Shown here piece after piece: positions 2,223 to 49,597 of a stretch of DNA of 64,000 nt (positions are counted from its first letter, which is position 1; each line of letters begins with the position of its first letter). Under the pieces are notes generated by a model. It saw nothing but the letters and a program-made list of their open reading frames with translations. It ran no database searches and was not told the origin of the DNA. Source of the stretch: Mitsuokella multacida DSM 20544 (GTDB lineage Bacteria; Bacillota; Negativicutes; Selenomonadales; Selenomonadaceae). The stretch spans positions 1,140,588 through 1,204,587 of the forward strand of contig NZ_GG697141.2 of the NCBI RefSeq assembly GCF_000155955.1, read 5' to 3'. A program made the translations under genes and the position numbers.

Positions 2223-2400
2223 TTCACGTTTCACATCTCGATAAATGTACCGATGGCTAGTCGGGAACAGGCCGTTGCCTTGCGAGGCAAGGAACACGGC
2301 CAACGCCTTTGGAGTGTACAAGAACTTGTGAGTAGTCTCAGGCTTGCCTGGATAAAAGCATACACGATGAATAAGGAATTTTTCTAAGACATGCACATTT
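2223..2400 (+). ncRNA. Candidate omega/reRNA at the 3' end of IS607 element 1
   Basis: Directly after tnpB there is a structured stretch containing a nested hairpin: GGCCGT (2270-2275) with ACGGCC (2296-2301), enclosing TGCCT/AGGCA. A second small hairpin, ACAAG-AA-CTTGT, follows near 2318-2329. TnpB guide RNAs of known systems overlap the tnpB 3' end and run through the right end into flanking DNA, which would supply the guide. The position and structure fit. The RNA boundaries are not determined. Confidence 0.5.
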
Positions 2401-47178: not shown

Positions 47179-47376
47179 CATACTCGTCAAACAATATGAA
47201 GAAATACGGAGAAAGAAGCGAGAACCCGACGAGGTTCTCACGGATGAGCAATACAAAAAGATTTCTGTAACAGAATTGGCCATTTTCATAAGAATTTCAT
47301 GGCTGATTGTATCCTTTTTCGCTATAATAAAGTTATAAATAGGAAGAAAGTGAAAGAGAAAGTAGGAGAGAATCAT

Positions 47377-48282
47377 ATGAACGATATCCACCACCTGCCC
47401 GGCAAAGCGGAGGCGAAGGCCGTCATCCGCCAGCACCGCAAGGCGTCATTTTACGTCAAGAAGTATCTGATGATCTTCATGGGCGCATTGATTGCGGCCA
47501 TTGGCCTCGAGCTGTTCCTGATCCCGAACAATGTCATCGACGGCGGTATCGTCGGTATCTCAATCATGATGTCGTCGATCACAGGGCTGTCTCTCGGCGT
47601 GTTCCTGGTCCTCTTGAACATCCCGTTCCTCTATCTGGGCTACAAGCAGATCGGCAAGAACTTCGCGATTGCGACGACGATTGCCATCTGTATCCTGTCG
47701 GTCTGGTCGGCGGTGTTTGCGCCAATCCCGAAAGTGACGGATGACCCGTTCCTCGCGGCAATCTTCGGCGGCATCATCGACGGTCTCGGCGTCGGCCTGA
47801 TCATCCGCGCGGGCGGCTCGCTCGACGGCACGGAGATTGTCGCCATCATCATGGACCGCCGGTCGGTCTTCTCGGTCGGCGAGGTTGTCATGTTCATCAA
47901 CCTCTTCATCCTGTCGAGTGCGGGCCTGCTCTACGGCTGGGACAAGGCGATGTACTCGCTCGTCGCATACTTCGTCATCTCGAAGATGATCGATGTCGTC
48001 ATCAAGGGCCTCGACGAGTCGTACGCCGTCATGATCGTCACGAACGAGCACGATGAGATCACCTCGGCCCTCAATGACCGACTCGGCCGTGGTGTCACGC
48101 TGTTGCACGGGCAGGGCGGTTACACGGGCGAGGCCAAGGAAGTGCTCTACTGCGTCGTCACGCGCCTCGAGGTCGACAAGCTCAAGGAAATCGTGCTCGA
48201 GAAAGATGAGAACGCCTTCGTCACGATCAACGCCGTCCATGACATCGTCGGCGGGCGCTTCAAGAAGAAGGCGATTCACTGA
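47377..48282 (+). CDS. YitT-family membrane protein
   Basis: This 301-residue protein has five or six membrane segments (DUF161: IGLELFLIPNNVIDGGIVGI, then RAGGSLDGTEIVAI) and a C-terminal cytoplasmic DUF2179 domain (ESYAVMIVTNEHDEI, RGVTLLHGQGGYTGEAKEVL). Family function is unknown; a transport role has been suggested. GTAGGAGAG precedes ATG 47377, and CTATAAT near 47322 is a plausible -10. It is followed by the long structured intergenic region. Confidence 0.88.
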   Translation: MNDIHHLPGKAEAKAVIRQHRKASFYVKKYLMIFMGALIAAIGLELFLIPNNVIDGGIVGISIMMSSITGLSLGVFLVLLNIPFLYLGYKQIGKNFAIATTIAICILSVWSAVFAPIPKVTDDPFLAAIFGGIIDGLGVGLIIRAGGSLDGTEIVAIIMDRRSVFSVGEVVMFINLFILSSAGLLYGWDKAMYSLVAYFVISKMIDVVIKGLDESYAVMIVTNEHDEITSALNDRLGRGVTLLHGQGGYTGEAKEVLYCVVTRLEVDKLKEIVLEKDENAFVTINAVHDIVGGRFKKKAIH

Positions 48283-48303: not shown

Positions 48304-48495
48304 CGTGGCCGAGGCACTGCCGACGCTTCGCTGGGCAATGGCCTAAAAATTTTTTCAGGCTTTTAATCAATCCTTGCCGAGAATCTAAACGCGCTGCGCT
48401 TGGACGACGATTCTCGTCAAGGGCAGCTTGTAGCCTGAAAAAATTTTCTTGACGGCCATTGCCAAAGCTTCGCTTACGTCAGCGCCTCGGCCACG
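48304..48495. repeat. Long hairpin element A (inverted relative to B)
   Basis: Nested stems run from the outside inwards. 48304-48315 pairs with 48484-48495 (12 bp), 48334-48343 with 48454-48463 (10 bp), 48347-48360 with 48433-48446 (14 bp), and GAGAATC/GATTCTC forms the tip stem. The apical loop 48387-48407 begins AAACGCGCTGCG and is identical, on the opposite strand, to the loop of element B. No coding frame or U-tract explains it. It is a candidate structured RNA or a REP/MITE-like mobile palindrome. Confidence 0.85.
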
Positions 48496-48599
48496 GCCTT
48501 TGGCTCCTTTTTCTCCCGAAAATTTCCTTGGAGAGCATCTATTGCGCCACTTAGCATGGCCGAGGAAATATCTCTGTCTAGGAACGCAGGCTGAAACTC

Positions 48600-48652
48600 G
48601 TCCTGTCTGGGGCGGGGGCAAGTGACAATCCGAAGGTCGCCCCCGAGGCAGG
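48600..48652. repeat. Hairpin C between elements A and B
   Basis: TCCTG and a GGGGGC core pair with GCCCCC and CAGGA around an 18- to 19-nt loop. It lies midway between the two homologous hairpin elements. The neighbouring sequence 48496-48599 holds no gene. Confidence 0.6.
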
Positions 48653-48685
48653 AGACCGTGCGGCGTGGCATGCCGGGAGGGGCGG

Positions 48686-48850
48686 GGACAGGAGCGGAGT
48701 GTTCGCAGCTGGCGTCAAGAAAGATTTTTCAGCCTACACTACTTTCCTTGAAAAGAACGATCGTCCAAGCGCAGCGCGTTTTCGTTCCTTTTCAAGGCTC
48801 AATTAAAGGCTGAAAAATCTTTTAGCCAGCTGCGCCACGAAGCGTTGTCT
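48686..48850. repeat. Long hairpin element B (homologue of A)
   Basis: 48705-48713 pairs with 48825-48833, and 48722-48735 pairs with 48807-48820 (14 bp). A tip stem CCTTGAAAAGAACG pairs with CGTTCCTTTTCAAGG. The apical loop 48761-48781 is the exact reverse complement of that in element A. The flanking arms also align with A when A is reversed (GTCAAGAAA then TTTTTCAG; GCGAAGCGT and ACGAAGCGT). Stem positions that differ between A and B mostly change as pairs. Confidence 0.85.
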
Positions 48851-48949
48851 CTGCCCTTCCCGGCCGCACTATCCCCGCCTCCATCCCCGATGTCATCCCC
48901 ATCCATTGCCGAACGTAACTTCATCGCCAAAAACAAAGGAGGTATCTTT

Positions 48950-49597
48950 ATGCGAAACATCATCACTCGTTCCTGCATCACCATGCTGATGCTCCTCCTG
49001 CTCGCGGTCCCGGCTCTTGCCGCGGGGCGGCAGCCGCAGCGCATTGCGCAGTTCCCGCTCGTCATCGAGAGCTGGCAGCAGCCGGACGCTTCGGTGCAGG
49101 ACCAGCTGGAGACTAAGATTGACCGCGCGCTGCACGTGCCGCTCAATGACACGCTCAAGGCGGTCGAGTTCATCCCCGAGAAAGACTGTCTCGCGGCCTG
49201 GGATGAGGCGGAGGGACAGCTGACGGGCAAGGTCCGCATCAAGGACCTTGCCAAGCCGATTGCCGAGAAGCTCAATGCGGACCTCGTCGTCATCCCGGTC
49301 CTCGCCGAGTACGAGCAGTACACGACCATGAGCTGGTACTGGGACCGCGGCATGATCCTGCACAGCCACGCGGAAGTACAGCTCATCGTCTACGACCGCA
49401 CGAAGGACAAGCTCGTCCACAAGAAGGCATCCGACTTCTTCGACGATGAGTACTCCTCGGCCGGCACGGCCTCGTATCTCGCCCTCAATTGCATGGAGCG
49501 TGTCGTCAACGATGCTAACCTGCACGGCTTCCTCTGGCCTTTGGACAGGAGTACGCCTGTCGCGGATGATGCGAAAAAAGTATCGACAAAGTCCTGA
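48950..49597 (+). CDS. Secreted protein of unknown function
   Basis: This 215-residue protein has a clear signal peptide (MRNIITRSCITMLMLLLLAV, cleavage after ALA). The mature part starts with QRIAQFPLVIESWQQPD and contains KVRIKDLAKPIAEKL followed by NADLVVIPVLAEYEQYTTMS, reminiscent of periplasmic proteins with an alpha/beta fold, but I do not recognise the family. AAAGGAGG lies 7 nt upstream of ATG 48950; a longer reading frame upstream has no site. It follows hairpin element B by 100 nt. Confidence 0.75.
   Translation: MRNIITRSCITMLMLLLLAVPALAAGRQPQRIAQFPLVIESWQQPDASVQDQLETKIDRALHVPLNDTLKAVEFIPEKDCLAAWDEAEGQLTGKVRIKDLAKPIAEKLNADLVVIPVLAEYEQYTTMSWYWDRGMILHSHAEVQLIVYDRTKDKLVHKKASDFFDDEYSSAGTASYLALNCMERVVNDANLHGFLWPLDRSTPVADDAKKVSTKS

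Follow-up and report, generated by a model that had tools for sequence, protein, structure and literature searches.

Two long hairpins, A and B, in a 64,000-nucleotide stretch of the Mitsuokella multacida DSM 20544 genome (the window) belong to a hairpin family that reaches far beyond this genus. Both probably represent a non-autonomous mobile DNA element, roughly 165–230 bp long, which is non-coding and likely works as folded single-stranded DNA of the bottom strand. A hairpin is given in orientation + if the apical segment reads AAACGCG on that strand, and the bottom strand is its complement. The following features were assigned:

48304..48495, + strand: long hairpin element A (fold z -8.9; R1 model match at 48314-48480, 162.4 bits)
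48686..48850, - strand: long hairpin element B, inverted relative to A (fold z -7.4; R1 model match at 48687-48854 (-), 153.7 bits)
48387..48407, + strand: 21-nt apical segment of A, same letters as in B
48761..48781, - strand: 21-nt apical segment of B, same letters as in A
48393..48399, - strand: predicted GC-GNA-GC mini-hairpin on the bottom strand of the apical segment of A (all four bases at N; paired change of G7-C13 to A7-T13)
48769..48775, + strand: predicted GC-GNA-GC mini-hairpin of B, whose bottom strand is the + strand of the window (basis as for A)
48325..48331, + strand: left outer motif GCTNCGC of A, cross-pairing with the right motif (double-sided changes at four of four pairs in the family alignment)
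48467..48473, + strand: right outer motif GCTNCGC of A, cross-pairing with the left motif in the family alignment
48344..48345, + strand: left side, TA, of a conserved 2x5 internal loop of A (by eye, alignment of 15 copies)
48448..48452, + strand: CTTNA, facing TA on the right side of this internal loop (by eye; also in part of the other genera, shorter in Lachnospiraceae)
48496..48685, no strand: spacer between A and B (in the orthologous pair of M. jalaludinii, partial tandem copies of the 3' half of A lie here)
47299..48282, + strand: upstream neighbour gene of the YitT family (PF02588), with its stop codon about 20 nt before A
48950..49597, + strand: downstream neighbour ORF (no Pfam hit), preceded by the intergenic region that contains B

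Folded as RNA, element A reaches -95.7 kcal/mol and element B -75.9 kcal/mol, and none of 200 shuffles of either was as low. The two inverted hairpins of the preliminary description and their identical 21-nt segment were recovered; no third place with up to three mismatches to this segment was found in the window, and none in 100 shuffles. When the window was searched with the family covariance model, nothing but A and B fell below an E-value of 1e-30; both are also weakly matched on their opposite strands, and one further match has an E-value of 0.99. The comparison with Rfam gave no match over A or B at gathering scores, and the seven matches of a loose search of three loci were all under the gathering scores and were taken as chance. 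Elsewhere in the window, a RAGATH-18 RNA was detected at 2306-2378 (+) with 70.1 bits (gathering score 44.9). In M. jalaludinii, the 3' half of hairpin A is repeated in tandem at C16:25200-25440, in two additional partial copies of about 87 bp each.

The 2.58-Mb M. multacida genome was searched for the loop pattern with up to three mismatches, which revealed 15 places (one for the reversed control), all of them tips of long hairpins. The covariance model search suggested in the preliminary description added a full-length match at C6:965672, so that 16 copies could be identified at E < 1e-30. M. jalaludinii carries 18 copies at E < 1e-28 and a third genome of the genus (G002) a single one. Within the Selenomonadaceae, matches with E-values up to 1e-6 were obtained in at least 60 of 189 genomes and 11 of 30 genera; these counts are lower bounds, since strict filters were applied and 15 candidates were scored per genome. 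Weak matches (around 1e-8) need reading by eye, because long hairpins are matched on their reverse strand as well. Of 30 loci from 11 genomes of six further genera, the 29 that were read (L106 left out) hold hairpins in which the stems differ and the loop is mostly unchanged; loop variants are AACTCGC... in genus g3 and a GTT-centred form in g2 and g3.

The family extends across phyla and thus reaches wider than the preliminary description had guessed. An exact-pattern scan of genome contigs yielded at least 116 stretches, and the matches listed include Selenomonas, Centipeda and Mitsuokella as well as records of Eubacterium/Lachnospiraceae/Eubacteriales, Bacteroidales, Bacteroidaceae and Woykebacteria. 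Thirteen loci from nine of the non-Selenomonad genomes were folded, of which 12 form hairpins with this tip, those of Bacteroidales being weaker than the others, and one (L228) is cut by the locus end. Copy numbers in these nine genomes (up to two mismatches) are 15, 8, 11, 17, 3, 3, 1, 4 and 1, with none in the controls. The Bacteroidales and Woykebacteria members (for the latter one bin) come from bins, where mis-binning is possible. The occurrence in Lachnospiraceae is no binning artefact, since hairpins are present in complete plasmid records, namely at three places in each of two records of Lachnospira eligens and at one place, with one inserted base in the loop, in Agathobacter rectalis. 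In the plasmid search, element A, one oral Selenomonas copy and one copy from Selenomonas sp. ND2010 gave no match, and a Lachnospira copy matched three records. When 398 genomes were sampled evenly across the phylum, the loop (up to one mismatch) was detected in three, all Selenomonadaceae; the pattern undercounts, since the sample included the model-positive genomes G010, G145 and G159. The distribution across bacteria is patchy. Two pattern matches in viral contigs (L271, L272) do not lie on this hairpin and were rejected as evidence for viral carriers; a blastn search of element A against phages gave no match, and a 39-nt loop piece gave two short matches at chance level. Among openly readable papers none with the loop sequence was found, nor was one on such a family in Selenomonas, Mitsuokella or Lachnospiraceae in a literature search that covered few subscription papers. 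Most likely, these hairpins, of which no description was found, are a new and widespread variety of non-autonomous hairpin element.

Across the groups, the hairpins share the apical segment AAACGCGCTNCGCTTGRACGA, and their stems differ by paired changes. The paired changes reported between A and B hold and extend to the family: in a MAFFT alignment of 15 sequences from the own genome, 95.0% of the cells pair and 36 of 51 pairs show double-sided changes. The 133 double-changed cells are to be compared with a shuffle mean of 37.3 (none of 500 shuffles reached 133) and with 12 to 24 for slid structures, so it is the pairing, and not only the sequence, that further copies keep. On the AAACGCG strand, the conserved elements are the apical segment, an internal loop with TA opposite CTTNA, and the two basal GCTNCGC motifs, which stand out most clearly in Mitsuokella and the genera closest to it. 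A second alignment of 67 matches, fitted to the model and with one match from the opposite strand, shows pairing between the two motifs: at the four cross pairs, A-T or T-A replaces G-C or C-G in 4, 2, 3 and 2 of the 67 rows, whereas such a change was seen once for a local mini-hairpin pairing of the motifs. The unpaired cross cells are mostly A-C, and the middle of the motifs is TNC in 64 and 63 of the 67 rows.

The 21-nt segment had been described as a loop; it is indeed conserved, but it is not fully unpaired. Its positions 7 and 13 change together from G-C to A-T in Lachnospiraceae, Bacteroidales and the Selenomonadaceae genus g22, and therefore the tip holds a mini-hairpin of two pairs (positions 7-8 with 12-13) with the loop TNC. 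The N is occupied by all four bases among 183 copies, which were chosen by the loop pattern, so that the invariance of most other loop positions is by construction. Read on the bottom strand, these conserved motifs become GC-GNA-GC. According to PMC4686876, on DNA mini-hairpins, a GNA loop closed by at least two G-C pairs, with any base as N, is extraordinarily stable, and GCGAAGC has a Tm of 78 °C. The GTT-centred tip of two genera corresponds to AAC on the bottom strand and not to GNA, which counts against the preferred explanation.

Evidence for mobility was obtained from orthologous sites. The site of A and B in G002 is a short intergenic region without a hairpin. An oral Selenomonas genome (G030) carries a hairpin between pgk and tpiA (PF00162, PF00121), and five aligned relatives have a short region without a hairpin there. 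Of the hairpin at a second site, a remnant of the outer stem seems to be all that is left in G027, and at a third G030 keeps only a right-hand remnant; both look like outer-stem scars. Two observations count against the preferred explanation: many of the Mitsuokella insertions are old, with 13 hairpins common to M. multacida and M. jalaludinii when paired by their flanks, and no target-site duplication was recognised by eye at the few boundaries read (S. ruminantium/ND2010 and the pgk-tpiA site).

Where two hairpins lie less than 700 bp apart, they are oriented + then - in 21 of 23 pairs, not all of which are independent; two pairs have the same orientation and none is - then +. A and B obey this rule. 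Many sites in S. ruminantium WCT3 and Selenomonas sp. ND2010 are occupied by inverted dimers that are almost identical to one another and have AATTACAGTTTG ends; some of these dimers lie inside a repeat whose ends are GGGACTGTGAAAA-like. This MITE-like repeat (loci L145-L154) has GGGACTGTGAAAA / TTTCACAGCCCC ends and an internal AGAAGCCTCCATAAG hairpin, and hosts the dimers in some of its copies. A terminator-like hairpin with a T-run was flagged at 7 of 47 listed dimer ends; some ends lie about 5-11 nt past it (L137, L139, L140, L142, L200, L227).

The 13 orthologous hairpins were used to follow the change of the arms. In 648 pairs, 43 double changes from one Watson-Crick pair to another, 26 single changes and 9 other changes were counted, and about 6.5 doubles of any kind would be expected if the arms changed independently. 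This excess of doubles, to which one hairpin alone contributes 16, goes beyond stepwise substitution and fits a concerted change of both arms or replacement by another copy. Homogenisation of the arms alone could yield paired changes without selection on the fold.

The mismatched cells bear on the strand that folds. In 64 distinct rows with 51 pairs each, 3,069 cells are Watson-Crick, 79 A-C, 33 G-T (15 of them at one doubtful pair) and 71 other, the rows being related and fitted to the model, so that the cells are not independent events. RNA-level selection on the AAACGCG strand is unlikely, because it would favour G-T, yet A-C dominates. Read on the bottom strand and without the doubtful pair, wobble cells outnumber A-C cells by 78 to 18, and therefore the bottom strand appears to be the one whose fold is tolerated. 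This bias by itself does not separate DNA from RNA, as it also fits a bottom-strand RNA with G-U pairs. Folding with DNA parameters made the bottom strand more stable in 158 of 183 copies and the top strand in 23, with two equal and a mean difference of 2.6 kcal/mol. Counts on RNA-folded structures (G-T 257 and A-C 192 forward; 472 and 80 reverse) were set aside, since such folding is biased towards G-T. Taken together, the excess of A-C over G-T cells, the position of GC-GNA-GC and the fold preference suggest that the bottom strand is likely the active one.

The search for a mobilising enzyme covered the 189 family genomes. At an E-value of 1e-5, the Y1 transposase domain PF01797 was matched in 26 of the 60 carriers and in 40 of the 129 non-carriers (Fisher p 0.10). 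The 34 carriers without a match include several fragmented genomes but also G027, G037 and G038, which consist of one or two contigs. Accordingly, the Y1 transposase was ruled out as a required mover; of the REP/MITE-like palindrome moved by a Y1 transposase that the preliminary description offered as an alternative, the mobile palindrome stands and the need for Y1 does not. The integron integrase model TIGR02249 gave no match over its curated cut-off in any of the 189 genomes, and its sub-cut-off matches in 61 genomes, also obtained in 13 of 14 control genomes, were taken as other tyrosine recombinases. Genes recurring beside hairpins formed 13 protein clusters in at least three loci each; by look these are orthologous loci or ordinary neighbours, and no transposase was recognised among them by eye. 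A tyrosine recombinase beside the Woykebacteria copy was dropped, since the 1060-aa ORF matched nothing but an N-terminal SAM model, and that under the cut-off. Nor was an internal gene seen in any element; this and the lack of a recognised mobilising enzyme count against the preferred explanation. In the own genome (C5:633769-635892), two hairpins of the same orientation (+) flank a MATE efflux gene; as this gene is inverted relative to its flanks in M. jalaludinii, a MATE cassette is only a lead (loci L027, L036, L058, L065, L215). A MATE gene also adjoins a hairpin in a Eubacteriales bin.

The preliminary description put a structured RNA first, and its present form, a transcribed and folded bottom strand with loops that serve for protein binding, as a ribozyme or as a substrate of RNase III, is the least unlikely of the alternatives, although unlikely. 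It draws on the strong paired covariation with conserved loops and on the conversion of A-C into G-U cells on the bottom strand, and GNA loops can form in RNA as well. However, wobble cells make up about 2.4% even on the better strand, no Rfam family was matched, and the copies show no preference for a gene strand. Among 142 copies, with genes called crudely by amino-acid composition, copies that are not independent and the chance viral L271 and L272 included, 47 are convergent, 46 co-oriented, 38 counter-oriented, 11 divergent and none inside a called gene. Without the two viral loci, co-orientation and counter-orientation do not differ (45 and 37, p 0.44), whereas convergent and divergent positions do (p 2e-6). 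The flanks of the 16 own copies, about 85 nt on either side outside the outer stem, contain no column above chance (best 0.56, shuffled mean 0.59) and no 7-mer above chance (four copies; shuffled maximum 4-5), and therefore no common promoter. As the copies are intergenic, lack a strand preference and a conserved flank, and are gained or lost at orthologous sites, a structured RNA is no longer the first choice, which the few G-T cells also disfavour. That the copies favour the 3' sides of genes (47 convergent, 11 divergent) would suit sites that benefit the host, such as nucleoid, termination or mRNA-end signals kept by selection instead of selfish mobility, and old orthologous copies are retained in two Mitsuokella species. 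This reading is nevertheless very unlikely, given that the congeneric G002 has one copy, that, with strict filters, 129 of the 189 family genomes are without a match at E 1e-6, and that one copy sits between pgk and tpiA.

Two further alternatives accept mobility and differ in the mover. If the elements were MITEs of an ordinary DDE insertion sequence, with an incidental hairpin form, the matching AATTACAGTTTG ends of the WCT3 and ND2010 dimers and the nesting of some dimers in the repeat with GGGACTGTGAAAA-like ends would be accounted for. In DDE MITEs, however, the ends are the conserved part, whereas here ends and arms differ between the genera read and between own copies and the internal motifs are common, which makes this origin improbable. 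REP or REPIN elements moved by a Y1 (RAYT/TnpA-REP) transposase would also appear as dispersed, mobile intergenic hairpins in inverted pairs, and 26 of the 60 carriers have a PF01797 match. With 34 carriers lacking one at E 1e-5, no conserved flank tetranucleotide in the 16 own copies, and a length of 165-230 bp against the 20-50 nt of REPs given in PMC8266576, this is the least probable explanation of all.

Under the preferred explanation, a mobile DNA hairpin, the bottom strand (apical segment TCGTYCAAGCGNAGCGCGTTT) would fold as single-stranded DNA into a long hairpin with imperfect pairing, which carries a GNA mini-hairpin at its tip, the TA/CTTNA loop in the arm and a 3x3 GNA/GNA loop near the base. 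These conserved non-Watson-Crick elements would be the recognition signals of a putative recombinase or transposase, which would place the hairpin, by insertion or copying, in intergenic DNA, either as a single unit or as an inverted dimer. The sequence of the arms would be free to change because both arms change together, whether by selection on the fold, by template switching or conversion between the arms, or by both. We consider it possible, though tentatively, that the hairpins form a cross-phylum class of single-stranded DNA elements, in single or inverted-dimer units, with a putative recombinase of their own that reads the GNA (sheared G-A) signals at tip and base and tolerates complete replacement of the arm sequence.

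A second, shorter hairpin class was observed in Mitsuokella, in which a 34-nt conserved core, AACGYTYCGCGCAGCAGGCTGAAGCTNCRCTTAT, is set in stems of about 20 bp that differ between copies. It is arranged in tandem arrays of three to four or lies near long hairpins (L050 1315-1660, i.e., G000:C6:325752-326105; L028 2698-2977; L015, L019, L020, L052, L060) and has no match in the window. The tandem model matches of about 45 nt belong to this class. Under the tentative reading of a cross-phylum class, these short hairpins, which have the same two outer motifs, would be a second substrate of the putative enzyme.

Several known systems resemble the family in part. Integrons, IS200/IS605 and REP elements are single-stranded DNA hairpin systems that each have a known enzyme. 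The IS200/IS605 transposase recognises hairpins with unpaired bases; these subterminal hairpins are much shorter and have a gene between them, whereas no such gene was seen here. The non-coding, foldable intergenic elements bcr1, ERIC, RUP and Correia, with 100-200 bp, are confined to a genus or family and conserved as a whole unit; unlike these systems as generally described, the present hairpins differ in their arms between copies and share a tip that spans phyla. According to PMC2727003, on attC sites, these are folded from one DNA strand, poorly conserved in sequence, marked by extrahelical or unpaired signals, and used as the bottom strand. Here, too, one strand folds better (158 of 183) and carries unpaired signals. 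In contrast to attC, no IntI over the curated cut-off was found in the 189 family genomes, the hairpins appear, in the loci read, dispersed between ordinary genes and not in cassette arrays, their conserved part is internal and apical, and they exceed the 57-142 nt stated for attC in the same paper (PMC2727003). REP, BIME and REPIN elements with TnpA-REP (RAYT) are portrayed in PMC8266576 as intergenic palindromes, in inverted pairs, recognised as single-stranded hairpins. The present hairpins share the intergenic position, the palindromic form and the inverted pairing, but they are several times longer and have a conserved apical segment, and no conserved foot tetranucleotide was found in the 16 own copies. 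With 34 of the 60 carriers devoid of a Y1 match and the integron integrase nowhere over the cut-off in the 189 genomes, the family is, on the features tested, assigned to neither attC nor REP.

That one tip recurs in Selenomonadaceae, Lachnospiraceae, Bacteroidales and a bin of a candidate phylum points to frequent transfer between phyla or to a shared putative enzyme. The GNA mini-hairpin, unusually stable in DNA chemistry, would serve in nature as an element for recognition. Because concerted changes of the arms outnumber single ones, the family offers a natural test of template switching in palindromes. Furthermore, some oral and gut genomes carry at least ten copies, and the elements are therefore a source of insertions and losses there.
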